From Polytrichum commune (lineage: Eukaryota; Streptophyta; Polytrichopsida; Polytrichales; Polytrichaceae): DNA of 64,000 bases. Of the stretch, positions 32,305 to 53,199 are shown piece after piece (position 1 is the stretch's first letter; each line of letters starts with the position of its first letter). The stretch spans positions 54,190,001 through 54,254,000 of the forward strand of contig OX485804.1 of NCBI GenBank assembly GCA_950295325.1. Direction: 5' to 3'. The notes beneath the pieces are model-generated. The model saw only the letters and a program-made list of their open reading frames with translations. It was not told the DNA's origin and did no database searches. A program made the translations under genes and the position numbers.

Positions 32305-33065
32305 TAGAGGGTATACCATTAACTTATGCATTGCTTTACATTGTGCAATTATCATGTATCAATACAATGTATAATATGGTATCTAGTGTCATGTACACTA
32401 TTTGCCCTTATTGGTGAAACATGTACTCTAGATTAGATGCCTAGAGTGTCACAAATTTGTCACATCCACTAATTGCAAAATATGTTACTATTTGTTAACA
32501 TGAGTAGTTTTTTGGAGTGAAAAAACGTATTTGTATTATAGCATTTACAGTAGCACATTGGGATACTTGAGATGATTATTTTGCATTTCAGTATACAAGG
32601 GGAAGATATTATTGAGCGTACTAATAGCAAGTGTCATGTGTTTAGGATTTTAGTATGCAAGAGGAAAATATTCTTGAACACACTAATGCCAAGTGTCATT
32701 TTGTGTACACTTTAATCAACTTATAGATCACTGTGTAACATAGGCATATACCTCATACACACTACCTATTGAACATACTCATGCCAAGATATTACCTAGT
32801 GAGAGCACGTGAACTCCAAGTGTCATGAGGTGACACTAAGAATGACGTTATTGATCATTAGTGTAAACTACACTAAATATGATATTTAGTGTCACTTATT
32901 CTTTGGAATTACATAATGCTATATCTATTTACTGTATATCTTGTATTTTACCAACATGTGTTAAATTGGTTGTTTGGACACTATAGAACATTAACAACTT
33001 TACTTGGTAAAACACTACATCAATGGGAGAAAAAATACAGCATTGTGTAAATCTGGACGACACTT
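32305..33065. other. Left subterminal region of the giant element
   Basis: Non-coding and AT-rich. The motif AGTGTCA/AAGTGTCAT occurs at least seven times on the plus strand (near 32384, 32444, 32630, 32691, 32819, 32888), and its reverse complement TGACACTA appears in the right subterminal region (49282). The inverted placement at the two ends is what transposase-binding subterminal repeats look like. Confidence 0.55.
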
Positions 33066-33094
33066 GTATGTGAGCGTAGAGCGGAGAGCGGAGA
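33066..33094 (+). repeat. Left inner terminal inverted repeat of the giant element
   Basis: Perfect 29-bp inverted partner of 49173-49201. It contains GCGGAGA-type repeats that continue after a spacer (GAGCGGAGAGCGTAGAGG to 33118). A 12-bp tandem repeat (ATTCCAAGAATA, about four copies, 33155-33210) follows, and together these could be transposase-binding sites. Confidence 0.9.
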
Positions 33095-33577
33095 TTTGGA
33101 GAGCGGAGAGCGTAGAGGAAATAAAAATAGTAAACTTGTCAGACTAAAATTAGGATATTCCAAAATAGCCAAGAATATTCCAAGAATATTCCAAGAATAT
33201 TCCAAGAATTTGACAATAATAGTAAAAAAATTGGACCTATTTCCGTGGGATGTATAGGTCATAAAATAAAAACCCTGAATTTGAAATGGTCTCATTAAGT
33301 TTGGAAACCGTGAGGTGGTTGAATTATTAAAACCAATGATGACTACAAGAAAAATCAATGAAAATGGATTTTTTGAGATTGGTATAATTGAAGAATGAGT
33401 CAATCAATATACAAAGGAATCAAAATAATAAACTTGCTTGGTTTTTATTCATCACTTTTCTCTTTGTCTTATATGTGAGTCTATTCTATAGCTTGGACTT
33501 TAGCAATTATCGTTTGTGGCCGAATAGATTATAAATTGGACTCATACCCAACATAATTGTATATACAGTTGCACACA

Positions 33578-34045
33578 ATGGGAGATGAGAGAGACATGTT
33601 TGCTGGATTAGGATGGGAGAAGGAAATTAGAAGTCTAGGAGATCCTCATATTCCATTTAATCCATCGCCGGAATTTGAGTTTGCTGCTGGAAATCAAAGT
33701 AGTGATGACTACGAGCTGACTCCATTTTCGCAGTCTACACAAGCATGGAGGTGGAGGGTGCAGGAGGAGCAAAAACAATATGAGAAAAAGGAAAAAAGGC
33801 AGGAAGATGTGCCGGAGAAGGATGTTGATTTAGATGAAGACAAATCGAACGAAACGGAGGAGGAGGTGAAGGTGGAAGGGGAATCTTCGAAGTCTCTTTC
33901 ATTTCGCGAACGGATGAGAGGAATGACGCCGCATCATCTTCCGCTGAAGGATCGAAAGAGAGATAAGACAATTTCTTATATGGATTTGCTTCGACCGGGT
34001 CCACCTCCCTCGCAATCATCTAAGAAGTATGCAAAACGGAAATAG
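33578..34045 (+). CDS. Small charged protein of the giant element
   Basis: A 155-residue protein. The ATG at 33578 (CACACAATGGGA) is chosen because the frame upstream to 33557 has no other ATG. The protein is hydrophilic throughout: residues about 25-60 are polar, about 70-115 are very rich in Glu, Lys and Asp (coiled-coil-like and acidic), and the end is basic (RKRDKT..., KKYAKRK), a possible nuclear-localisation tail. No domain is recognised. It lies just inside the left terminal repeat, converges tail-to-tail with the transposase (161-bp gap), and has an AATAAA at 34090-34095. Position suggests an accessory element protein; an upstream non-coding or coding exon cannot be excluded. Confidence 0.6.
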   Translation: MGDERDMFAGLGWEKEIRSLGDPHIPFNPSPEFEFAAGNQSSDDYELTPFSQSTQAWRWRVQEEQKQYEKKEKRQEDVPEKDVDLDEDKSNETEEEVKVEGESSKSLSFRERMRGMTPHHLPLKDRKRDKTISYMDLLRPGPPPSQSSKKYAKRK

Positions 34046-34206
34046 AGTTGATAGACATAGGAAGCATTGTAATACAAAATTTTGAAGCAAATAAAAATAA
34101 TCATTGAGATTATACCTTTATTATATCAATCAATTATTGCTTCACAAGAGGTCCAGAAATGGACACATATATCATAGCCCAAAGTACTGTTAGGCTGAGA
34201 TAAATC

Positions 34207-37200
34207 CTAAGAAGTAGACTTTGTCAAAAGACCCCCTTCGAGGATGAGTTTGACTTCGTTGAAGCTAAATGTCGGGGCGTGAATGAACAAATTCACTTCC
34301 GCATCCAAATTAGAAACCTTGATGAAAATGTAATATAAATGCTTACAATTCAAATAAGAATTTCGTTTGCGGCTGAACTTGGAAATCATATCCAAGAAAA
34401 ATGCGCAGTTGCACTCTGGAAGAGAACTGACTGTCACTTGGTAGATCGGTGGTTGGGGTTCTGATTTGGACTGCAGTGTGATAATGCAACCAAATCCCGA
34501 TTGAGGGATCATAGTTAACTTCATAACGGTACCATGCATAGCTTCAGCAGAGGCCACCATCTGCCTCTGCTTTGCCGAAGGTGCGCTACTGGATCGCCGA
34601 ACAAGCTTGGACAATCTTGTCGGAGGGATCATGTCGGGGTTTTCTGGAACACGGATTCCAGACATATCCAGCGGGGGAGCAGAGTTGGTGAAGAGTTGAG
34701 TCGGTGTGATGCGCTCCTTTGGTGGGAGTTGAAAACCTGCGTTCTCAAGGGCGAAGATATCCGAGCGGGTGAGGTTGGTACCAATCTTCACGGGCCAAAT
34801 TGGGGGAATAGGAGGCTTCTGGTCATGAGCAGAGAACGGCATGACCCATTTCCGACGAGGGCCCTTCACGCAACGCTCAATGTCGTCGGGGCAAAAGACA
34901 AAGTCCGTGCGCTTCATAGATTGGAGTTTGTAATGATGCCACATACCGGTGTAGGTCGGCGCAGGGACGCTCTTATTATTAGTGACGATTCTTGCGGTGC
35001 ACTTCTTCTTCGTGCCCGCATGATTAGCCCAACAAGACTTCCCAGACGTATAGGGTATGCGGGCAATATGCCAAAGAGAGACATCTACTTTGGTTTCTTG
35101 CACGGCAGTGACACGCTGGAAACCAAGTCCTGCAGGTGAAGGCACTTGAACCTCTTGTACAGAGGGGGAAGACTCCTCAATGATAGTGGGTAGTGTTTCT
35201 GGTTGAGATCGAGTGACACGCTTACCGGGGGGAGGGCGAGAGAAGTTCACGGTATCGGGGCGGTGGGTCTCGCCATCATCACCAATTGGAGTGTCTGATC
35301 TTCGCTTCTGCGATCCAAACACCTCAGCGCCCTCAAGGTGTGGATCGCGAGTGCAAAATTCTTCCCCACCGGACATGTCAAGCAAGACCTTCTGCAACAC
35401 TGTGGGGTCGCCAGTACGCTGAGCTCGACGTTGAGCACCCCTGAGCTTTAGTTCGTCTTTGCTTGGACCATCTCCGCCAATTCCACCTTTAAGGAACTGG
35501 TAGTATGCAACAACTTGTAAGAAGGCGCGAATGTAGTCGTCAACCGTAGCCACGTATAGATCTCCACCCTTGTTGCCGGGGGCTTGAAGCCATTTGTTGT
35601 GGACGGACTCCGCAAGATTGCACGACGGCATCTCGGCCAATTGGTCTTGGGTTAAAACCTTTTCCTGATTGGAGAAATCAAGTATTAATATAAATGTACA
35701 GAGAGAGGAAATCGAATCCAAGAAAAACCAATAATGAATTATGAAGGAGATGTACCAGTTCCATGAAACCACCCCATTGAAGGTAGCGGAAGTGCCAAAA
35801 AGCAAGCCAGAGCTGAAGATGCTTGAGACCGTCCTCACTTGTACAATTCGATGACGCCCACCAAGCCTTGATAGCTAGGTACCTAGTCTCAGCCTCTTCC
35901 ATAGATGACGCATTTCGATATTGAAGGCAAAGATGTCTATGTTGGTCTTGTAACTCATGCTTTATATACGATTTCGTATGTTTTTCGAGCGATTGTTTCC
36001 AATGGAAAAAACAAGTGCGCTCACGACCCTCCATTGGAACTTTGGGATCCCCCGAACCATATACAATGCGAACAGCGTTCCAATTGGCTTGGGCACTGTC
36101 CGCCATGAAGCCTATAAAGTTTGGATGTGGGATACCGTGTCGGGCCATGACGTGGTTGAGGTTCTGCCAGAAGAGAACTTGGGCATCCTTATCCTCCGAT
36201 TGGAAATCACAACATGAAATGGTCATGACCCGTTGATAAGTCCCATCGTACACATGAGCGGCCATGGTGGTCCACCCTTTGACCCGCTTCACGTGATCGG
36301 ACATCATCCACGCGTTCTCCAGGTCCCCACCCGGTTGCATCCGACGAACCAAATCCACTCCACTTCCAGGACCAACCTCCGACATCTTGAAGACGAACAC
36401 CTTGTCTGTATCGTCACCTTGTCCTGGGAATTGGTTCCGTTGGACGTAGGCCCAATTGCTAACGCCTCGGAGCTTTGCGATGCCATCCATAACACCAAAC
36501 CTCCGCAAATATTTGAAAGAGGTAACCTTAGAGCGAAGGTTTGGGGAATTCAACTCTCTACAGCTCTCAAAAACAGGTTCAAGCTCTTTTAAAGAGAAGA
36601 GACGGTGTGTGTCATTATCGCCAGAAAGGAGAAACTCACCAACAATGTCCTTGCTAGCTTCAAGGACGATCTTGCTGTGGGTGGCTTGAGGCGTACGTTC
36701 AACGTGCTCCTCAAGAAGTGCATTGATACGCTTCCGACTGTCTCTGCAGTCTCCAACCTTCACTGGATGTTGATGAGAACCGAGATGAATGCAGGCTCTT
36801 TGGGATGACTCCTTCCCATGGACGTAGAAGATTTTGGCCTCGCATAGTGCAATGCATTTGGGAGGCTCTTTACAGATCCTACAGACAAGAGTAGATCCGG
36901 ATGGCACAATGCCAGAGAGACGGAAAGGATCTTTAGTGAAACCTTCAAATTCTGTGTCATTGACCTTAGAGGTACGATGGGCGCGTTGAAGGTAATCACA
37001 ACTCGGGTTTTGGCATTGGAGATGGCCAACACAGGTAGAGGAACGAAATGCAAGGCCAACGTCGTTTGTAATGTTGGTGGTTTGAGTCTTAGTCCAAACA
37101 TGGCCATCATATTGCTTGTCCATGCCGTCCAACGACTTGGCCCTGGTTTGAGATGAAGAGACTTCTGCTGCAGGGAGGACAAATAACTGGGTGCCATCGA

Positions 37201-37879
37201 AACGAGGGGGAAGGTGATTAACTTCTTGGATTTTGATTTTATCGTAATCTATTTTCTTGAGGACGTTCTTACTACCGGGCATAGAGCCAAGACGACGAAG
37301 ACATTGAACAATAGTTTGAGGAGGTTTAGACGTAGGGACCGAAGGAGTTGAAGGGACAGAGCTAGATGGAGAAGGCGTTATGTAGGATGCAAAGGGAAAC
37401 AAATGAGGGGAATCATGGACAGCAACCTTATACACTGGTACATCTTCACTCGAAGAATCAGACAAGTCTATAACGTTGTCTACACCAGGCTCGGTCTTGA
37501 CGCTTATTACGGGGGGTGTGCTAAAGGCAACAGTGGATGATCGAAGAGGAGGAAGGATTTCTGTTGACACTTCCATCTGAGAATCTGGCCAGCCACAAAC
37601 CCTATACTTTCCCGCGCCAAGCTCCCACACTACATTGCCATTGTCAGTTATCTTGGAGGTCTCATGGAAGGTATGAACGAGCAATCCAGTATCAGGATGG
37701 TAGATCTCACGCTCTACCCATATTGTACTAGCTTTCAAAGAGAACCTAATGCTAAGATGAAGCTCCGAGACAACAACAATACCTTGTGCACCAATGGGGA
37801 ATATAATAGGGACCCCGATGCCATGTGAACGAAGTTCGGCCATCTCAGAGACGGGAGGAAGAATTGAGGTGGAAGCCAT
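34207..37879 (-). CDS. Mutator-like transposase with zinc cluster and SWIM finger
   Basis: Two exons on the minus strand, 37879-35756 and 35664-34207, joined by a 91-bp phase-0 intron with consensus ends (CTG|GTACAT ... AATCAG|GAA); total 1193 residues. Residues about 283-371 hold a Cys/His cluster (C283, C289, C294, C333, C336, C363, H365, H369, H371), like the WRKY-GCM1-type fingers of many Mutator transposases. Residues 540-630 carry the RNase H-fold core: HVYDGTYQRV (D545), FMADSAQANWNAVRIVYG (D594) and TCFFHW (C-x2-H), the usual MULE layout; a third acidic residue should follow in the Glu-rich stretch near 661. Residues 1126-1150 form a CxC...CxH SWIM finger (C1126, C1128, C1148, H1150). 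It should cut and join the element ends in the nucleus. No stop or frameshift was seen, so it may be active. The MASTSI start is preferred to the ATG at 37918. Confidence 0.88.
35665..35755 (-). other. Intron of the transposase gene
   Basis: Minus-strand donor GTACATCTCC after ...GAACTG and acceptor ...TCCAATCAG before GAAAAGG. Removal keeps frame (phase 0) and joins FMEL to EKVLTQ. Confidence 0.85.
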
Positions 37880-38198
37880 GAAGGCAGAGAAAGCAAACGT
37901 GAAGGAACAAAGATGCAAAGATGCATAGAGAAGGAGAATGGTGATGACGATGAAGTTATAAACAAATACGCATGAATATCAGGAAGGAGACAAAACTGTC
38001 AGGCATCCTAAAAAAAGATACCCCTAATTACAAAGATGGTTGTCAGATAGTAAAGCGCGCCTCCCATCGGGAGGTATTGCAATTATATACTGAGAAGAAT
38101 GCGATTGCTCACTTTCTTTCCAATGTGTGAGTTTGATGTGGTGAGGTTGTGGAAAGGAAATAGAGCGAATAGGTCTGAATTGCGGGAGGGTTGAACAC
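37880..38198. promoter_or_regulatory. Divergent promoter region of transposase and ParB-methyltransferase genes
   Basis: The 319 bp between the two divergent start codons. A TATATA at 38084-38089 lies 110 bp before the plus-strand ATG. A minus-strand TTTATAA (37956-37962) lies about 80 bp before the transposase ATG. A small hairpin CTCCCATCGGGAG (38061-38073) sits between. Shared control of both genes is plausible but inferred. Confidence 0.5.
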
Positions 38199-41100
38199 AT
38201 GAAGGAAATAGGCAATTCACAACCTCCGACAACGGAACCATCTAAGAAAAAGAAGAGGAGGCGATCGTCTACACATTACACTGATAAGAAGAGAAAGACA
38301 GTGAGGACACAAAAGTCACAGGCAAGGAAAGCGCCAATTGAGGGCCGTGGGACGCCCGAGGATTTGAGCCAAAGCATAAAGGACCTGCGGAAACCTTCGT
38401 GGAGGTTAGACTGTGGGATTCGGCCTTTTCATTTATCACCGATTGTAGAAGAGGCGGACGGAAGTAAAGCGCAACCAATGGCAGAAGTGGAGGAGTTGGG
38501 AAACGACAGCATCCAAGAGGACTCACGCGAAGAGACAAACTCTACAAGTGTCGTACGTATTCTTCGGGTTCTCCATATATTCAGTTGTTTGAGCACATAA
38601 TGAAAATGGTAGAACATATTCAACTGTGAAACAACTTTTCTTTTAGATATTATGGTTTGTCATCATTGTTATAAACATTGTTTTATCTTAAATATAGGAA
38701 GAGGGGGGGAGTGGAGATAGTGGAAATATCTATGAAGAAGACAACAAGGAGGTAGCACAACAAATTGAGAAGGCGTTAGAAGAGCGAGAACCGATGTCGG
38801 GACAACCAACGATTCAAGCAAGAGAAAAAATGAAGGCGTCCAAGAGGAAAGCGGCAAAGGAAGATCTGAAATCAAATTTGTTGGGAGGCCGCGAAAGAGC
38901 TGAAGGAGGAGACCCATGCGCAGAAACCCTAAGTGTGGATGTTGTGACCCCTGCTTCAAGATTTCTGCGAAGCAAGGCGGGCGGAACACAACAAACATCA
39001 AGGCGAGGGCGTGGCCGCGGGAGAGGAATGGCGCAAGTAAACCTCGGAGATTCGAGAAGCACTCCAATATCGCCGACAGAGGACGGGACCTCGGAAGATA
39101 GTGGCGCCAATATAGGGGCTTCAGTGGAGGGCATACTCCAAATTCTGGTAAGGTGTCGGGATCTCGGCCAAGCTATGTTCGCCAACGTTTTTGCTTTCTA
39201 TCACCTTGATTTCTCATAGTATTTGGAATATCAGCTTGACTTGCTTTCGGCCTTGTCTTGATTTGGGTTTAGGAACATGTTAGGAAAGGTATGTTTGTGC
39301 TTGAAAAATCAAAAGGTTATGTGCACATCATGTTGCTCTCGGCCTTGTCTCGTTTTGTGTAGTGCACAAGAACGAGCTAGGGCAAGAGGCCTCGGATCCG
39401 AGGCCTCATATTTGTGTAAGTTTGAGTATGTGAGAGGTAGGGTTTTGAGGGAGGTGAGGTTCTTGATTTCTCAACCTAATAGAATGTCAACTTTCTTGCT
39501 TTCTTGATTCCTTGCTCTCGGCCATTTCTTCTATTGTGTAGTGCATAAGTGGGAGCCATAGGAAGAGGCCTCGGATCCGAGGCCTCTTATTTGTGGGTAG
39601 GTTTGTGCTTGAAAAATCAAAATGTTATGTGCACATCAATTGCTCTCGCCCTTGTCTTGTTTTGTGTAGTGCATAAGAAGGAGCTAGGGGAAGAGGCCTC
39701 GGATCCGAGGCCTCATATTTGTGTAAGTTTGAGTATGTGAGAGGTAGGGTTTTGAGAGAGGCGAGGTTCTTGATTTCTCAAACTAATGGAATGTCAACTT
39801 TCTTCCATTTTTGATTCCTTGCTCTCTGCCTTGTGCCCCACGGGCGAACGCCCGTGGGCCATGTAACAAGTAACTTGGTTAGGCATGTCTTTATGAGGCA
39901 CTTTGGTTGGTTCTGAGTATGTAAACTAGTTTGTGTGTGAGGCCTCGGATCCGAGGCCTCTCGGCCGAGGCCACTTGAGGTTTTTTGATTCAAAGTATAA
40001 CTTGTATGAATGAGGCACTTTGCTTGTTTTTGAGGATGTAAACTAGTTTGTGAATGAGGCCTCGGATCTGAGGCCTCTTTTATGTGTTCCAAAACAAGTG
40101 TAGAGAAGAGGCACTTTGGTTGGTTTTGAGTATGTAAACTAGTTTGTGAATGAGGCCTCGGATCCGAGGCCTCTTTTATGTGTTCCAAAACAAGTGTACG
40201 GAAGAGGCACTTTGGTTGGTTTTGAGTATGTAAACTAGTTTGTGTGTAAGGCCTCGGATCCGAGGCCTCTCGGCCGAGGCCACTTGAGGTTTTTTGATTC
40301 AACGTATAGCTTGTATGAATGAGGCACTTTGCTTGTTTTTGAGTATGTAAACTAGTTTGAAAATGAGGCCTCGGATCCGAGGCCTCCTTTTAGTGCCCTC
40401 GATCAGCAGTCCCCAGGGAGTGGCTCCCGGGACTCCGAATGTTCAAACAGGCATAACTTCCTTGATTTTTGCCCAAATGGGGCAAGTGAGGTGTCCATCG
40501 GCATCTACATTTCACGTAGATGACGATAGAGTGGTTGATTGTTAGATTCGGAGACCACACGTGGAAGATATGGAGGTCTGAAGCTGCCGGGGGGGGGAAA
40601 TGTGTTTTGTTAAGTGCATATGTAGAAGCTAGGAGAAGAGGCCTCGGATCCGAGGCCTCTTTTATGTGTTCCAAAACTAGTGTACGGATGAGGCACTATG
40701 GTTGGTCTGGAGTACGTAAATTACTTTGTGTGTGAGCCCTCGGATCCGAGGCCTCTCAGCCGAGGCCACTTGAGGTTTTTTGATTCAACGTATAGCTTGT
40801 ATGAATGAGGCACTTTGCTTGTTTTTGAGTATGTACACTAGTTTGAAAATGAGGCCTCGGATCCGAGGCCTCCTTTTAGTGCCCTCGATCAGCAGTCCCC
40901 TGGGAGTGGCTCCTGGGACTGCGAATGTTTAAACAGGCATAACTTCCTTGATTTTTGCCCAAATGGGGCAAGTGAGGTGTCCATCGGCATCTACATTTCA
41001 CGTAGATGACGATAGAGTGGTTGATTGTTAGATTTGGAGACCACACGTGCAAGATATGGAGGTCTGAAGCTGCGGGGGGGGGGGAAATGTGTTTTGTTAA

Positions 41101-44100
41101 GTGCATAAGTAGGAGCTTTGGGAAGAGGCCTCGGATCCGAGGCCTCTTTTTTGTGTCAAGGTTTGTGCTTGAAAAATCAAAATGTTAGGTTCATTTTTGA
41201 ATTCTCTCGGCCATTTTCTGTAGTATGTATTTCATAAGGAGGGGCATTCGGAAGAGGCCTCGGATCCGAGGCCTCATTTTTGTGTCAAGGTATGTGCTTG
41301 AAAAATGAAAATCTTATGTTCATTTTTGAATGCTCTTGGCCTTCTTGTTTTGGGTAGTGCATAAGTAGGTACTTTGTGAAGAGGCCTCGGATCCGAGGCC
41401 TCATTTTTGTGTCAAGGTATGTGCTTGAAAAATGAAAATCTTATGTTCATTTTTGAATGCTCTTGGCCTTCTTGTTTTGGGTAGTGCATAAGTAGGTACT
41501 TTGTGAAGAGGCCTCGGATCCGAGGCCTCATTTTTGTGTCAAGGTATGTGCTTGAAGAATGAAAATCTTATGTTCATTTTTGAATGCTCTTGGCCTTCTT
41601 GTTTTGGGTAGTGCATAAGTAGGTACTTTGTGAAGAGGCCTCGGATCCGAGGCCTCATTTTTGTGTCAAGGTATGTGCTTGAAAAATGAAAATCTCATGT
41701 TCATTTTTGAATGCTCTTGGCCTTCTTGTTTTGGGTAGTGAAGAAGTATGTGTTTTGGGAAGAGGCCTCGGATCCGAGGCCTCATGTTTGAGTCAATTTT
41801 ATTTAAGAAAAATCAAAATGTTATGTTCGTGTAAGATTACTCTCGGCCTTCTTGTTTTGGGTACTACATGAGTAGGAGGTTTGTGAAGAGGCCTCGGATC
41901 CGAGGCCTCTTGTTTGTGTAAGTTTGAGTATGTGAGAGGTAGGGTTTTGAGAGAGGCGAGGTTCTTGATTTCTCAAACTAATGGAATGTCAACTTTCTTG
42001 CTTTCTTGATTCCTTGCTATCGGCCATTTCTTCTATTGTGTAGTGCATAAGTGGGAGCCATAGGAAGAGGCCTCGGATCCGAGGCCTCTTATTTGTGGGT
42101 AGGTTTGTGCTTGAAAAATCAAAATGTTATGTGCACATCAATTGCTCTCGGCCTTGTCTTGTTTTGTGTAGTGCATAAGAAGCAGCTAGGGGAAGAGGCC
42201 TCGGATCCGAGGCCTCATATTTGTGTAAGTTTGAGTATGTGAGAGGTAGGGTTTTGAGAGAGGCGAGGTTCTTGATTTCTCAAACTAATGGAATGTCAAC
42301 TTTCTTGCTTTCTAGATTCCTTGCTATCGGCCATTTCTTCTATTGTGTAGTGCATAAGTGGGAGCCATAGGAAGAGGCCTCGGATCCGAGGCCTCTTATT
42401 TGTGGGTAGGTTTGTGCTTGAAAAATCAAAATGTTATGTGCACATCAATTGCTCTCGGTCTTGTCTTGTTTTCTGTAGTGCATAAGAACCAGCTAGGGGA
42501 AGAGGCCTCGGATCCGAAGCCTCCTATTTGTGTAAGTTTGAGTATGTGAAAGGTAGGGTTTTGAGAGAGGTGAGGTTCTTGATTTCTCAAACTAATAGAA
42601 TGTCAACTTTCCTGCTTTTTTGGTTCGTTGCTCTCTGCCTTGTGCCCCACGGGTGAACACCCGTGGGCCATGTAACAAGTAATTTGGTTAGGTTTTAACA
42701 TCATCAAATGTGTGCCCCACGGGTGAACACCCGTGGGCCATGTAACAGGTAACTTGGGTAGGATTTAGCATCATCACGGGGAGATGTCTCCATGTCAAAT
42801 ATTTTTAAAAATTATGATTTTTTTTCTCTATATTCATAACTATTGATTATATCTTTTGTATATTTTTTTGAAATTTTTTGTCATCTTCATTTTTTCTAGT
42901 AATTGTTTTAGTTGAATACTGCGTCATTCTAGGTAGAAATGGTATGTTTTCTAGAAAAATATGGTCATCAAATTTGGTCATGATATTTTACTCCGTAATA
43001 GATATCATGTATATCTACGTCCCAAAAAAATTTGAGAAAAGTTTGACCCATTTTGGTGATGCAACTTGGCAATGGAGTGACCTCCCCTGGAACATCATCA
43101 AATGTGAACCTCACGGGTGAACACCCGTGAGCCATGTAACAAGTAAATTGGTTAGGTTTTAAAATCATCAAGGAGGGGCATTTGGAAGAGGCCTCGGATC
43201 CGAGGCCTCATTTTTGAGTCAGGTTGTGTGCTTGAAAAATGAAAATGTTAGGTTCATTTTTGAATTCTCTTGGCCATTTTCTGTAGTATGTATTTCATAA
43301 GGAGGGGCATTCGGAAGAGGCCTCAGATCCGAGGCCTCATTTTTGTGTCAAGGTATGTGCATGAAAAGTTAAAATGTTATGTTCATTTTTGAATGCGCTT
43401 GGCCCTCTTGTTTTGGGTAGTGCATAAGTAGGTACTTTGTGAAGAGGCCTCGGATCCGAGGCCTCATTTTTGTGTCAAGGTATGTGCTTGAAAAATGAAA
43501 ATCTTATGTTCATTTTCGAATCCTCTCGGCCTTCTTGTTTTGGGAAGTGAATAAGTATGTGTTTTGGGAAGAGGCCTCGGATCCGAGGCCTCATGTTTGT
43601 GTCAATTTTATGCTAGAAAAATCAAAATGTTATGTTCGTGTAAGATTGCTCTCGGCCTTCTTGTTTTGGGTACTACATGAGTAGGAGGTTTGTGAAGAGG
43701 CCTCGGATCCGAGGCCTCATTTTGGAGACAATGTATGTGCTTGAAAAGTCAAACTGCTATGTTCACATAAGATTTCTCTCGGCCTTTTTCTTTTGGGTAG
43801 TGCATAAGGAGGAGGTAGGAAAAGAGGCCTCGGATCCGAGGCCTCTCATTCGTAGGTAGGTTAGTGCTAGAGTTGAGCACTTGACTTAGCATTCGGCCAT
43901 TTCCATTTGTAGTTTGCTCTCGGCCTTGTATTGTTTTTGTGAGGATTTGTTTCTTTATAGTTACGAAGTTATTGACTTTTCTTTGTGAAATTCTCATTTT
44001 CTCCATGTTCTTAGGATATGGACTCTTCACAGGTTGCGCAATCGCAACCCCAATCTGGAGAGGATATTGTTCTTGCGGCCCCCGCGGTTGAAGTTGAAGC

Positions 44101-47100
44101 TGTGCAGGTTGAGAGTCTCAATTCGCAGGGCCCATTACAAGTAGAGGTGAGTTGGATAGTTGTTGAATAATTTGTTAAGCAAGTTTTTTGAGTTCTAGCT
44201 TTCTAAGCATGGTTTTATTGTTTGTGTTTTTGTTAGGCTCTCGCAATGAGCGAAGATGCCGTTCAAGCAGTTGCCGACACGGATCCCGTGGTGTGTGAGC
44301 TTGAGCTTCGGAAATCACAAAAGGAGGACTCCATTGGTGTTATCCAACGCCTTCGGATTAAGCCAACATGTAAGTCCCGCTTATCCATTCCTTTATGCCG
44401 CTTGAGAGCCCTCCCTCTCGTCCGTCCTATCAGTGAGGTTGAGGTGCAGCGCTTGGAATGTGAATTTGTAATGGGATACCGAGAGGGTGATCGGGTTCTT
44501 TACGTGTCTTCTTTCAACGACGTTCCCGTGGACCTCCCCATTCCCCCTGGCATTATAGCCTCTTGGAGCCCTCTCTGGCAAGAGGCCTCCGCAGAATTTG
44601 ACGCCAAGCTCAAGGAGGATCCGGATCTTGCACATTTCGCCGGGAAGATGTTCTTCGTCTGGGAAGGCAATCATCGTCTCACCGCTTGGTGGAGACACAT
44701 CAATAACCACCACGCCGATGACAAGAGTTGGCATATCTCGGTGGATTGCATTGTTGTTGACCCTAGAGGATACACCGGTATATTCCTCAATGCCATGAGC
44801 GACATTAATTGGTAAGCTCATTCATTTTTTTTATTCATTTTTCATTTTTGTTTCAATTCTTTTTCATTCTTTTCAGCTCACGTTCCTCACATATTTTTTC
44901 TCAGGTCAACCGAGCATGATTATGTCAAGGCAAACATTCCGGCCAAGCTCCTTCGAATCCGCACTTTTGGGAGGTTAGAGTTGTCCACCTTCAAGGATCT
45001 TATATCGCCATCTGACTACAAAGCATGCGAGAAGATAAAGGAGAGTCGCCCAACTTGGTACACCTTGACCGCGGATGTGTTCGTTAAGTTTCTTTACAAG
45101 GTATGGTTTTATGCATTCAATCATTTAGAGCTTCCAACATAGATAATTTCCATACCGATTATATGAACTCACAAGGTCATTTCTTGCAGAGAGACATTTC
45201 GGCTCAAGCAGACTTTGCAGTGAGGCATTACCGTGAGACCACACCCGTTGCAGAGAGGTCGGCCACTGAGATTTGGAATGTTATGACCAAGGCCCAGGAG
45301 AGAACAATCAAAAGTATTCGGGCCCGTTCTTTTGAGAAGTACATATCCGTTGCACACCCTGACAATAGAGAGGATTTCTTTCATGAGGTACTCTTTTGAA
45401 CTCAAATCACTCTTGAACGCAATTCATCCAAATCACTCTTCAACTCTATTACTCTTTTGAACTCAAATCATTTTTATTTTGTACACAGATTGACCGTCAT
45501 TTTAATGAGTTCTCTTCGACGGACATGACAATTGAAAAATTGCAAAAAATTGTCACATGCCCGGTCGAAGCTTCGTTCAAAGCTAAGTGGCTTCACTGGT
45601 GGAACGCCCCCCTTCGTGAAAGGTTAGATAACAAGTTCCCCGTCGACAAGCCTATGAGGGAGAGGGCTTTGGACGACTGGCTACACAAGGCGTCCTTCTG
45701 GGCTCAAGTAAATCCATTCCTCGGCCTTCTTCATTTTCATTTTCCTCTATTCCATTTATCTCATATCTAATCATCTCCTTCTCTGCAGTTGGAGAAAGAA
45801 GTCGCGGTTGAAATTGAGACCTTAGAGGAGAGCCTCTCCGTCGACATTGATTGGGACGCATCAGAAACTATCTTGCGCCCTCGTGAGTACGTTGATCATT
45901 GGCGGATTGTCCTTTGGGACAAGGCCTTCAAGCCTTATCTCGGCGATAAGCCTGACATCGCATTTGCCAAAGGTGATAATCTCTTGGAGTTCGAGGAGGG
46001 GGCTCTCGCTATTAAGCGTGTAGCCTATCGGTAATACATCTATCCTCCACTTTGCACCTCTCCTTAATATCATTTCTTGCTCGTTTTGTTGGTTTTCTTA
46101 CATTCTTGTTTTGTCATGTAGGTATATCATGAGAGAATTGGTTGTGAAGAATGCATTGGCCTCATCTTCCTTGCCGGACTACCTCTCGGACTGGGTGAAT
46201 ATTTTTTCTAGCCTCTGCGTATATACGACCGCGCAAACAAACAAGTTTTCCGAATTGCACTTGCAGGGTGGTGGATGGTACTTGGATTGTGCTGCAGGAT
46301 TTGTCCCCGGGGAAGAGAAGGCTTTGTTTGCTAGCCTTGTGGGTAGTGCTCTGGATAATAACATTGTTACCTTGGAGGACCCTGACATCGTTGAGCTTCC
46401 CCCTCCTCCTCCTAAGGCACCAAGGAGAAAGGGCAGAGCAAAGAAGACCGCCACTCAAGCATCTTCCCAAATTCTCACTCGGTCTGCTTCTAAGACCCCG
46501 GTTGAGCCACCCACCCTTCCACACAGTCCATCTATCGCTCCCTCCGTTGCTCCCTCTCTTGCCCCTTCTGTTACTCCATCTGCATTTCATCCACAATCTC
46601 TTGCCACTCCATCTCATAGTGGCACTTCTCTCCTCTCTTTGCCTCGCAAGAGGAAGGCCGCTCTCTTGGATACCAGTGCCACCTCTTCGGATGCCACTAA
46701 CACGCTTACCCTCATCGAAAATGTGGACATGGTTCAACTAATGCTGGATTCCGAGGTTGCCGGAGGTCCCCTCCCCGCATATACCCGCATCTAAGAGTTC
46801 ATTGCCAAGGTTTGTATACTTGCCTTCGTCAATTCTCAATTTTTTTTCCTTTGCTTTGTTTATTTCTTTCCTTCTTGTTTTCTCATGAAGTTTCAATTGC
46901 AGGTTGGGGCAGGTCGTTCCCGTGTGAACACCTCGACTACAACTCACAAGGGCCTCGATTTGCTCTTCGCCGACATTCCCGAAAATTTGCCGGTGCCGAA
47001 CATCTCCACCGATGTTCCTGCTTGGAACAAGCTCCATGAATCATACTATGAGTGTCTTTTTGCATTTGCGAAATCTAACCTCTATGATCATGGTGTCCTT

Positions 47101-48218
47101 GTTCTTGCCCATTGTGCGAGTGCCAGTGTTTCTAGGAGTATTTTCGATTGGGCACACACTTATGACTTCTACGTCGCGGAAGATTGGTTTGGAATGAATG
47201 ATTTAGACCTCCAATCTCCCGTTGTTCCCTCTGGAGTGGTAAGCAAGTCTCCCTCTCTTCCCCTTCCGTATTGCTTATCATTTCAATTTCAATTCAATTT
47301 CAATTCCATTTCATTTCAATTCAATTTCATTTTCATTGTTGCAGACTCGGAAGTTCAACATCAAAGTTCTTGTTCGTGTTAACTCCGTTCTTAGAGTGCG
47401 GGAGGAGGCCATACAAGAGTATGGTTACAACCTCCAACGAGATGGATGGTTGAATACCTTCACCGATGAGAAGAGCCAGACGATGCGCAGTGATGGGGTA
47501 CCTTGGCGAGGTGCCCGTGAGAAGCATCCTATTTTTTTTTCCATCCTTCTCGCTACTCTCACCGACAAGAATGATGTTATTATGGACTGGCAGTGTGGTG
47601 TAGGTACGCCTTCTTTTTCAACTTCATCCTTACTTTGAATTTTCCATTATTTTTCCTTGACTAGTTTTCATACTAACATTTTACCTCTCTTTGCTTTAGG
47701 TGGTTCGATTACAGCATGTCGCTCCCTTGAGCGGCATATTGTGGCCCTTGAGAGTGACCCCGTCATTTTCAATTCACTCCTACTCCCCATGCGCGATCCC
47801 CAGCCTGCGCGTATATCTCGCTCAGTTGCCGCACCGTCTACATCTATCTTTGATCCTCCTCAAAAGATGACCAAGAGGGCATTCGGATTTCTTTGTGCGT
47901 AAGTTTGCTTTCTATATTTTGCCATGTTTGCTTTGATTTCAAATTCTCATTTTCTAGTGTCATCATGTTTCTAATCCTTTTGCTTGGGTGTTTAGAGAGC
48001 CAGCGGAGGTCGCAGTCATTCGTCGAGACATGTTTTCAAGTCCTCCGAAGCCGTTTGAGCTTCCCCCGTATGCTAGTGCAATGGCGGATTGTTTTGCGAA
48101 GGCGGAGTCCCCATCTCCTCCTCGCGTTCGTCATTTCTCGCGTGGAACACGAAATCTTTTCTTGTTAGAAGCAAATGAGGGTGAGGAGAGTGATAGGGAA
48201 TGTTCTCCAAGCCCTTAG
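38199..48218 (+). CDS. ParB-like / N4-N6 DNA methyltransferase-like fusion gene, 13 exons
   Basis: Exons: 38199-38552, 38698-39147, 44015-44146, 44237-44811, 44905-45100, 45190-45387, 45489-45707, 45789-46030, 46122-46809, 46903-47238, 47345-47603, 47700-47898, 47996-48218; all GT-AG, frame kept, 1357 codons with the final TAG. Residues 1-312 are basic/acidic low complexity (KKKKRRRSS; RGRGRGRG). Residues about 370-520 resemble the ParB/sulfiredoxin-like fold: PISEVEVQRL, then WEGNHRLTAWW (456-464), then WHISVDCIVVD. After a Pro/Ser-rich linker, 1019-1356 follow the beta-class amino-methyltransferase order: LLFADIPENLP in the motif IV place (DPPY expected), a VLVLAHC strand, EKHPIFFSILLATL (motif X) and DWQCGVGGS (motif I, FxGxG). 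ParB-methylase fusions are known from phages. An in-frame TAA at 46792-46794 (codon 1013) precedes the methylase part. Exons 1-2 may be a separate gene, since intron 2 is 4.87 kb. Confidence 0.72.
39837..39858. repeat. Second hairpin family, copy 1 (of 4)
   Basis: CCCACGGGCG-AA-CGCCCGTGGG, a 10-bp stem with a 2-base loop, followed by GCCATGTAACAAGTAAC. The other copies are 42646-42667, 42716-42737 (both with a T-A instead of C-G pair) and 43110-43131 (another paired change). Confidence 0.9.
40248..41220. repeat. 486-bp higher-order duplication within the satellite
   Basis: Sites at 40248, 40365 and 40638 correspond to 40734, 40851 and 41125 (offset 486-487). The two copies of the intervening 270 bp (CCCTCGATCAGCAGTCCCC...) are nearly identical. 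Each contains the inverted pair CATCTACATTTCACGTAGATG and a G homopolymer of differing length. A 307-bp higher-order unit relates 42067-42373 to 42374-42680. Confidence 0.85.
42646..42737. repeat. Second hairpin family, copies 2 and 3
   Basis: Two copies of CCCACGGGTG-AA-CACCCGTGGG at 42646-42667 and 42716-42737, exactly 70 bp apart, each followed by GCCATGTAACARGTAA. Relative to copy 1, one stem pair changed from C-G to T-A on both arms. Confidence 0.9.
43110..43131. repeat. Second hairpin family, copy 4
   Basis: CTCACGGGTG-AA-CACCCGTGAG: the second pair is T-A instead of C-G, changed on both arms, so the stem is intact. The preceding 320 bp (42780-43100) is AT-rich and unrelated to the satellite units. 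Confidence 0.88.
46792..46794 (+). other. In-frame TAA inside exon 9 of the fusion gene
   Basis: The frame reads ...TACCCGCATC-TAA-GAGTTCATTGCCAAG and then the donor GTTTGT. A CAA-to-TAA change would explain it. If read as a stop, the product ends at residue 1012 and lacks the methyltransferase-like part, although the later exons keep frame and splice sites. Confidence 0.75.
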
Positions 48219-48273
48219 TTTATCATTTTGGTTTTGGAGATTATAACTCCGTTTGTTGTTGTTATCCGGCTTT

Positions 48274-48279
48274 AATAAA
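48274..48279 (+). terminator. Polyadenylation signal of the fusion gene
   Basis: AATAAA 56 bp after the TAG stop at 48216-48218, followed by a T/G-rich stretch (GTTGTGTGTTGG). Confidence 0.6.
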
Positions 48280-48501
48280 AGTTGTGTGTTGGTTTTATTT
48301 TTGATATCCGGCGCAAGTTTTATTCTTTCTTTCCATTATTTCATATTCATATGTCAACCCGCATTGCATTCTTTATTTTTTCTTCATCGTTCGGATCTCT
48401 TAACTTCTAGTCACAAAACAATCTAGCTCTCGGCTCTTAGTGTGAGATCTTAGTTATAGGGGGACCATACTTTCTATTAGTGTGGATGGTTTATTTTATG
48501 G

Positions 48502-48810
48502 TTGTGCACACTAATCACATTGGCCGTCTTCCAATCCCAATTGCTATATAGCAATTGGAAGTTTTGTTTGGCACGCGAACATAACCTCGTCAAACTTTTT
48601 AAATTGAAATTCATGTTGTTCTCAAAGAGCCGGCACGTCACCTCAAAAATTTCCAAGAGGATTCTAAGGTTGGACTTGGGGGATTTGTCTTTGAGGTCTT
48701 TGGCTAAGCTAAGGACTGAATTGGAAGGCTGTTATGGTGCGACGGAGTTTTATGGCATGTTCTTTGGATCATTTTACCCATATTGGACATGCCCGGCAGA
48801 TAGGGTGTAG
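48502..48810 (+). CDS. Unrecognised open frame at the right end of the giant element
   Basis: A frame of 102 codons. Its last 60 residues (SKISKRILRLDLGDLSLRSL... ending in PYWTCPADRV) look exon-like; the first part, with many Leu and Phe, does not. A 22-bp perfect palindrome (48537-48558, arm CCAATTGCTAT) lies inside it, which argues against a real N-terminus. No domain is recognised. It could be a terminal exon of a lost gene or chance. Confidence 0.2.
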   Translation: MCTLITLAVFQSQLLYSNWKFCLAREHNLVKLFKLKFMLFSKSRHVTSKISKRILRLDLGDLSLRSLAKLRTELEGCYGATEFYGMFFGSFYPYWTCPADRV

Positions 48811-49172
48811 ATGGCCCTAAACTAGAGTATATAGTTATTTTAACTAACTACCCATTTTTGTAAGTCTTGAGGTTGGCTACATTTTGTTGACCAATAAAAT
48901 ATTTTGTGTATGGTATTTTGATTTCAATTTGGTGACGTCAGCCCTAATTTAATATGATACATTTGAAAACATATACTATAAGATGTTTGATAACAAATGC
49001 AATCTTCCACGCCTATAGGATCCGTTGGTTTCTCAAACAATTCTGGGTTATTATGTCCACGGGAATGGGGGTACCTTTCCAAATATAGAATTCAAACTAT
49101 CTCTAATTCCACGGAAATAGGCACTGCTTCTCCTAAAATTACCCAACAAAATCTAAATTTTCCGCTCTCCGC

Positions 49173-49201
49173 TCTCCGCTCTCCGCTCTACGCTCACATA
49201 C
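49173..49201 (-). repeat. Right inner terminal inverted repeat of the giant element
   Basis: Perfect 29-bp inverted partner of 33066-33094. Here the CTCCGCT unit is repeated four times (49161-49188) without the spacer seen at the left end. Confidence 0.9.
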
Positions 49202-49351
49202 TTGAGTTTCCCGTGTAAATCCAAATAATAAGTAACACTTAGTATCATATTTACTGTAGCATACGCCTCAAAATAGGATAAATGACACTATTCCACATGT
49301 AACACTAAATACCATAAACGGTGTAATGGCGTTGGTGAGAATTATACCCTC

Positions 49352-52360: not shown

Positions 52361-52762
52361 TCTAGAATTGGTTTCATTCTTTCATTACAATTTTCGTGGG
52401 ACGGAGGTGTTGAAGAACACTATTTGCTTGTTGGTCCTCTTGAAATATAACTTAGTTATCTCCCACATATTGTTCACGCTCCTTAATATCTTTACCATCA
52501 TCAATCGCATGTTATTTGCAAGATTCGTCCACCCCAACCACCACGGCTTGGACAACATTTCAAAATTATTCAAAATACTTATACTATCCTTTATGAACAC
52601 AACATCTCTTATGGGACCACACACATCCAAATGTACAATCTCCAAAGGCTTAGTTTCTCGTTCCCACCCATCATTGGAAAACAATGTCCTATGTTGCCAA
52701 ACTACAATGCATTTTTCACAAATCAACGCAGGTGTGGGACAACCAATTTTGCTATGATTCAT
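52361..52762 (-). pseudogene. Ty1/copia GAG-pre-integrase and integrase start
   Basis: The minus-strand frame contains CEKCIVVWQHRTLFSNDGWE and then KPLEIVHLDVCGPI, the signature of the copia pre-integrase zinc region and the first catalytic Asp of integrase (HLDVCGP). The sequence then degenerates and ends near the LTR without the DDE remainder, RT or RNase H. Confidence 0.88.
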
Positions 52763-53199
52763 GCCACTTATTATCCTTTACAATGCATGAACACTATTCA
52801 CATTTAAATACCTAAGCCAACGATGCTAAAGTTCAAGTGCACCGTTTTTCTTCGATGATTGTGCCAAATTAACTACATCCATTTTATGCACCTTGGTAAA
52901 GTTGATTCCATATAAATTTCTTTGTAATAGTCCCATTATAATCATCTCTCCATCCATGCCTCCCACAATACATTTATTTTAGTTGAACTGCATTTTAACC
53001 CAATTGACAAAAGTTTGCTCACCACGAGCAAATTATCTTATAACTTGGACACATTAAAGGCATATTTAATGCAAATTCTCTTTGTTTTGCCTTTCGCCAT
53101 CACATCAACAACAACGGAACCCATTTCAATTGCTTTCATACTGCTATTACCTCCTAAATGAACATTGCGTGGAGTAGTTATCGCATATGTCTCAAATGC

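Follow-up and report, generated by a model that had tools for sequence, protein, structure and literature searches.

The locus described here raises the question of what a DNA transposon does with a long array of palindromes and with a second large gene, resembling those of DNA methylases, placed opposite its transposase gene. It lies in Polytrichum commune, within a stretch of 64,000 nt (assembly GCA_950295325.1, contig OX485804.1, positions 54,190,001-54,254,000 of the forward strand; C2:54190001-54254000), hereafter called the window, which we compared with the whole genome (408 Mb in 64 contigs). This comparison reveals one mobile unit that carries a transposase and a conserved second protein, together with a palindrome that is a strongly conserved site. 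The reading we favour, to which we give slightly less than an even chance, is that of a Mutator-like element with a VANC-like self-recognition system, probably anti-silencing, that is built on an unrelated protein; in it we infer both the binding and the anti-silencing action.

The limits of the element were set by comparing copies. A query with the left end returned 41 rows, corresponding to 40 places including the window copy (40 scored of 414 candidates), and 20 of the 39 places outside the window were fetched for comparison. For 17 of these 20, base 33055 is the first to match and the sequence before it is unrelated, and for the other three the match begins within ten bases of that point; at the far side, all four complete copies, compared over their right halves, end at the base equivalent to 49212. 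The transposon thus delimited (33055-49212) measures 16,158 bp, and is narrower than the unit 32307-49351 proposed in a preliminary description made from the letters of the window, at whose bounds the 45-mers match at 23 of 45 positions. The terminal inverted repeats (33055-33094, plus strand; 49173-49212, minus strand) contain the perfect 29-bp repeat which that description had reported, located at 33066-33094 and 49173-49201 and therefore 11 bp inside each element end. Flanking them are the target-site duplications GTGTAAATCT (33045-33054) and GTGTAAATCC (49213-49222), both read on the plus strand, which agree at 9 of 10 bases. The four further complete copies all have perfect 10-bp duplications (ACTGTGAGCA, GTTCATTTGA, CAACTGGCCA and GGTTTTGGCC); for fixed boundaries, the probability that 10 bases agree perfectly by chance is about 2e-6 per copy. 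A short tandem repeat with an 11-bp unit (33169-33223) was also noted just inside the left end.

Both ends and the gene order are common to the window copy (16.2 kb) and these four further complete copies (16.5, 16.6, 18.3 and 19.4 kb), which bears out the earlier proposal of a single mobile unit with transposase, second gene and palindrome array. The right halves of the complete copies are 99.3-99.5% identical pairwise, pointing to recent movement, and the family is large and probably recently active. The transposase side of the element was found in 19 of the 20 fetched copies, at 97.4-99.7% identity over matches longer than 1 kb; in L012, just 144 bp of it fall within the stretch read. In the copy L019 (L019:1-200), the left flank in element orientation is itself part of an older element copy, matching 37568-37770 at 88.7%, so that here one copy has been inserted into the transposase gene of another.

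The transposase gene, on the minus strand, consists of two exons (exon 1, 35756-37879, 708 amino acids; exon 2, 34207-35664) separated by an intron (35665-35755) deduced from splice signals and reading frame, and encodes a protein of 1193 amino acids that is intact in the window. Exon 1 holds cysteine clusters, D545, D594 and a CxxH at 623, and exon 2 holds E727, within AESVHN, and a SWIM-like CxCx19CxH cluster at 1126-1150. D545, D594, the CxxH and E727 were located by eye, and together with the C-terminal cluster form a pattern that we take to be that of Mutator transposases. A Pfam search with the whole protein (E<=1) matched no transposase family, the sole match being FERM_M at E 0.027, below cut-off; Pfam gave no match to the catalytic piece at E<=10 and none to the SWIM-like cluster, and a comparison of the first 769 residues with solved structures gave one chance-level row (E 0.11). 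The Mutator assignment is thus based on the 10-bp target duplication, the terminal repeats and this residue pattern. In an alignment of 20 copies including the window (L012 excluded), the transposase is open in 11, counting the window and one version of 1201 amino acids. Ratios of nonsynonymous to synonymous differences (pN/pS) between the window and 14 copies, five frame-broken copies having been set aside, range from 0.24 to 0.72.

The second gene lies on the plus strand, divergent from the transposase gene, and comprises 11 exons encoding 1087 amino acids. Exons 1-7 (44018-44146, 44237-44811, 44905-45100, 45190-45387, 45489-45707, 45789-46030 and 46122-46809) encode the N-terminal half, and exons 8-11 (46903-47238, 47345-47603, 47700-47898 and 47996-48219) a DNA-methylase-like half, in which motif IV (ADIPEN, residue 772) precedes motif I (DWQCGVGG, residue 942). 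The window copy has one in-frame stop, at 46792 in exon 7. Among five copies read, two (c11 and c28) have the gene fully open with every splice site kept; it is also open in c10, which lacks nine amino acids, and in c18, where one splice donor is altered. Evidence of constraint comes from a single distant pair, the window against L037/L038 (a separate out-of-frame exon-10 row was excluded). In this pair, exons 2-6 are 56-72% identical, with a nonsynonymous divergence (dN) of 0.22-0.36 and saturated synonymous divergence (dS); in exons 8 and 9, identity reaches 87-88% and dN/dS is 0.19 and 0.12, so that both halves of the protein look constrained in this one comparison. Across the C-terminal half (46690-48219), synonymous divergence is far below that of the N-terminal half, which suggests that gene halves have been exchanged between subfamilies. 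In L038 (L038:520-978), exons 9 and 10 are fused and 84% identical over 153 residues, unlike in the window family, where an intron falls within the methylase-like motif I.

We sought to establish how regularly the two genes travel together. The exon searches gave lower bounds: for the transposase exon, at least 64 rows at 76-100% identity (from 63 scored of 2391 candidates), and for exon 2 of the second gene, at least 150 places at 59-100% identity (150 scored of 1284 candidates), 116 of the 150 being without a stop. For the pairing count, 63 of the 64 transposase rows were used, one of two adjacent C6:12375xxx rows having been dropped. A second-gene exon lies within 30 kb in divergent orientation at no fewer than 50 of these 63 scored places (at least 31 of 34 near-identical copies and 19 of 29 divergent ones) and on the same strand at one; when positions were shifted by 2, -2 and 5 Mb as controls, the counts were 0, 1 and 0. 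Starting instead from the left ends, and with 55 of the 150 scored second-gene places used in the count, we found that at least 33 of 40 are followed within 35 kb by the second-gene exon on their own strand and that 7 are not. Ends lacking the genes between them, which the preliminary description had named as what would speak against a single unit, were therefore largely not what these counts returned.

Between the two large genes lies a tandem-repeat array (39240-43900) holding 28 sites of the palindrome GAGGCCTCGGATCCGAGGCCTC (39386-43845), 23 of them exact and five with one change. In 237 of the 378 possible site pairs, the flanks are less than 60% alike, and in these pairs the flanks average 42% identity and the cores 98%. 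The exact palindrome occurs 1903 times genome-wide, compared with 0 for the reversed control. Each of the four other complete copies has 26 to 44 exact sites, and matches within five changes number 31 to 53 per copy. Sites are present in 18 of the 20 fetched copies, 10 kb of each having been read, the two without being L009 and L012.

The palindrome differs along with the second protein in the subfamilies read, namely the window and three others read in part. Where the second-gene exon is 65% identical to that of the window (L037), the site is CCTCTCGATTCCGAGAGG, with 20 sites, 15 of them exact, in arrays located upstream of the second gene as well as inside the intron that separates its exons 5 and 6; a transposase gene at C7:6437578 adjoins this second gene in divergent orientation. 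L041 (exon 64% identical) has three GACCCTCTCGGAACCGAGAGGGTC sites in 501 bp, and L039 (82%) a single AGGCCTCGGGTCCGAGGCCT site, which was seen by eye and passed over at the threshold of the script. All four palindromes, from the window and from subfamilies with exons 64-82% identical to it, share TCG-N4-CGA, around a centre that is GATC in the window and GGTC, ATTC or GAAC in the other three. The sequence CCTCTCGNNNNCGAGAGG occurs 2564 times genome-wide (reversed control 0). Positions of palindromes were taken from the first places on C1, where one such array (C1:16459013-16465962) flanks a second-gene exon (66%) at C1:16461491 on either side, and where the divergent genes of an 81% copy (C1:12940403) have two exact sites of the window type between them, at C1:12943277 and 12943532. 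Of the 19 divergent pairs, 14 combine a transposase of 87-91% identity with a second-gene exon of 63-66%, and in two of these 14 the genes are more than 20 kb apart.

Among plant transposons that pick out their own copies to let them escape silencing, the best-studied known case is that of VANC. The VANC protein of Arabidopsis VANDAL elements removes silencing and binds short motifs that are tandemly repeated in the non-coding DNA of the family it belongs to (PMC5735166, PMC10398659), its target sites include the region upstream of the transposase and introns of VANC, and between VANDAL families the motifs and VANC change, the transposase less so (PMC5735166). The element described here resembles this system, as described in PMC5735166, in combining a transposase with further genes in one Mutator element, in having motifs that differ between related families, in a transposase more conserved than the accessory protein, and, in L037, in arrays both upstream of and within an intron of the second gene. 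It differs in that the second protein is methylase-like and in that the putative target is a 22-bp palindrome, where that of VANC is a 9-base motif.

Since site arrays, placed as they are in VANDAL elements and varying between subfamilies, occur here together with a fast-changing second gene, we propose that the second protein has an N-terminal reader and a methylase-like effector. The family would be one of autonomous Mutator-like DNA transposons with two divergent large genes around a tandem palindrome array, whose second protein, probably acting as a dimer, would use its faster-diverging N-terminal half to bind the palindromes. The better-conserved methylase-like C-terminal half would act as a common effector, keeping the control region of the element free of host silencing in a role like that of VANC in VANDAL elements. 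In a more specific form, which we put forward tentatively and judge on balance unlikely, self-recognition would be the property of a whole superfamily of eukaryotic transposons, in which a subfamily-specific, fast-changing DNA-reading domain would be matched to its own palindrome with the TCG-N4-CGA core and joined to an interchangeable, highly conserved effector derived from a prokaryotic methylase, which would have lost the classical catalytic motif and would now block or redirect host methylation at the element.

A first alternative, unlikely in our judgement though deserving real weight, holds that the array is a bidirectional promoter or enhancer, or an accessory site for transposition, and that its binder is the transposase or a factor of the host, the second protein being otherwise employed. 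The position of the arrays between two divergent genes in the window and beside L037 is what such a role would predict, but in L037 an intron of the second gene is filled with sites as well. Moreover, L037 and C1:16461491 have other palindromes, with transposases still 87% and 91% identical and second-gene exons 66%, which makes the second protein better suited as the reader of the sites than the transposase.

A second alternative concerns the C-terminal half, which may be an active amino-methyltransferase that marks its own palindromes (with GATC at the centre in the window) and so protects or labels the DNA of the element. In five collections, searches with the last 338 residues returned weak matches to beta-class DNA amino-methyltransferases, all at one common segment: CcrM (E 0.0045), PHROG 18293 (E 0.0039), two DpnA structures (E 0.014), PF01555 (E 0.1) and phage DNA methylases (28 records, E 4e-3 and weaker). 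The motif I segment aligns to DpnA 177-223. These matches speak for an active enzyme, as does the strong conservation of the C-terminal half in the one distant comparison. Against it, no collection searched gave a match to this half at its curated cut-off, Pfam assigned no family to the whole protein of 1087 amino acids at E<=1, and a two-sequence profile scored lower (E 0.17). DPPY is the classical motif IV of amino-methyltransferases; in all six copies read (the window, the four complete copies and L038), the motif is DIPE, so that the catalytic pattern (D/N/S)PP(Y/F) is absent and classical methylase catalysis is doubtful. The site centre is, in addition, not GATC in the three other subfamilies. 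We consider active methylation improbable, and the suggestion in the preliminary description that the cargo once modified DNA could not be established from these data. The methylase-like half has most likely ceased to work as an amino-methyltransferase of the classical DPPY type; it may have a non-canonical activity or bind S-adenosylmethionine.

A third possibility, to which we attach a low and marginally smaller probability, is pairing, tethering or partition of the ParB/parS kind, in which the protein would cluster on the palindromes and bridge copies or sisters during replication or transposition. Palindromic arrays are reminiscent of parS clusters, and residues 186-194 of the N-terminal half read EGNHRLTAW, which the preliminary description took as ParB-like and which we too liken to a ParB motif. 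Profile searches gave this label no support: in Pfam, NCBIfam and PDB, the N-terminal half matched nothing of the ParB kind. Among PHROGs it matched only a family without known function (E 0.046), a tblastn search of phages with 613 of its residues gave no match, and a scan of viral contigs with exon 2 of the second gene gave no relative. A predicted model of exon 2 from six sequences, with a mean predicted local distance difference test score (pLDDT) of 38.5, was too poor for judging the fold. Least probable is a structural satellite without any protein reader, homogenised by unequal exchange with the palindrome hitch-hiking. Site number does vary between copies in the way of tandem arrays (31 to 53 within five changes), but cores remain 98% identical where flanks average 42%, and the TCG-N4-CGA core recurs inside otherwise different arrays of other subfamilies.

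Several observations weigh against a VANC-like system. The array, after removal of the exact palindrome cores, has a CpG observed/expected ratio of 0.49, where the flanks have 0.56 and 0.37 and the genes 0.78; it is not CpG-rich, and its composition gives no support for lasting freedom from methylation. The second protein has no match to the VANC domains DUF1985 or DUF287 (Pfam, E<=1) and is not a member of the VANC family. Thirteen of the 63 scored transposase places have no second-gene exon nearby among the matches listed, and in L040 (exon 59% identical) no palindrome was found in the 501 bp read. Conversely, the single palindromes at C1:467244 and C1:9750568 and an array at C1:24591149-24594959 have no second-gene place among the 150 scored. 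This array consists of CCTCTCG-N4-CGAGAGG with several centres (GAAC, GTTC, GACC and GAAA). The transposase or a host factor could be the binder of the sites instead, and the strong difference in dS between the two halves means that the faster divergence of the second-gene exon could partly reflect module exchange. Finally, pN/pS of the transposase is near or above 1 in many pairs among other, older copies, and selection on it within the family is therefore uneven.

We also compared the element with other known systems. Mutator-like elements (MULEs) have target duplications of 8-11 bp (PMC6446971), and the present element shares with them its 10-bp duplication and terminal inverted repeats and, putatively, a DDE-like pattern with CxxH and a C-terminal SWIM-like cluster. 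It is unlike MULEs in general in its length (16-19 kb), in the extra methylase-like gene and in lacking a Pfam match to a transposase or SWIM family; the word 'methyltransferase' has 0 occurrences in the main text of PMC6446971. Fungal transposons with TET/JBP dioxygenases are, like this element, DNA transposons with a gene related to DNA-modifying enzymes, and the available part of PMC12730594 discusses the transposon TET/JBP as a possible counter to silencing; they differ in enzyme fold and in transposases, and that same part mentions no palindrome array for them. With prokaryotic beta-class amino-methyltransferases (CcrM, DpnA and those of phages), the second protein appears to share the order of motif IV ahead of motif I. 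It departs from them in having DIPE for DPPY and DWQCGVG for DPFMGSG, in its fusion to a long N-terminal half without a database match, and in its intron-rich gene. In the openly licensed literature searched, we found no element of this kind described as carrying a gene for ParB or for a methylase.

The element also contains a small open reading frame of 155 amino acids (33578-34045, plus strand), without assigned function, which is open in 14 of the 20 aligned copies including the window. Outside the element, the preliminary description had noted a second inverted repeat matching at 39 of 45 bases (32869-32913, plus strand; 49214-49258, minus strand). This repeat is real, and was rejected as a part of the element: its arms lie outside the transposon and the right one overlaps the right target duplication, so that it belongs to the host DNA. 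The flanks 32307-33044 and 49223-49351, which contain GAGGGTATA / TATACCCTC ends in addition to this repeat, may represent an earlier inverted-repeat element, some 0.9 kb long, that served as the landing site of the transposon. Further along the window, an open stretch at 52388-52777 (minus strand) resembles what we take to be a fragment of a copia-type retrotransposon.

Under the VANC-like reading that we favour, the family would represent a second arrangement of the VANC kind, with a protein of different origin. With at least 150 second-gene places in one genome, and with several subfamilies whose matched sites are evident from the sequence, target choice and the countering of methylation by such proteins would be directly testable by swapping proteins and palindromes, and the family could turn out to exemplify the conversion of a bacterial-type methylase into an editor of the epigenome.

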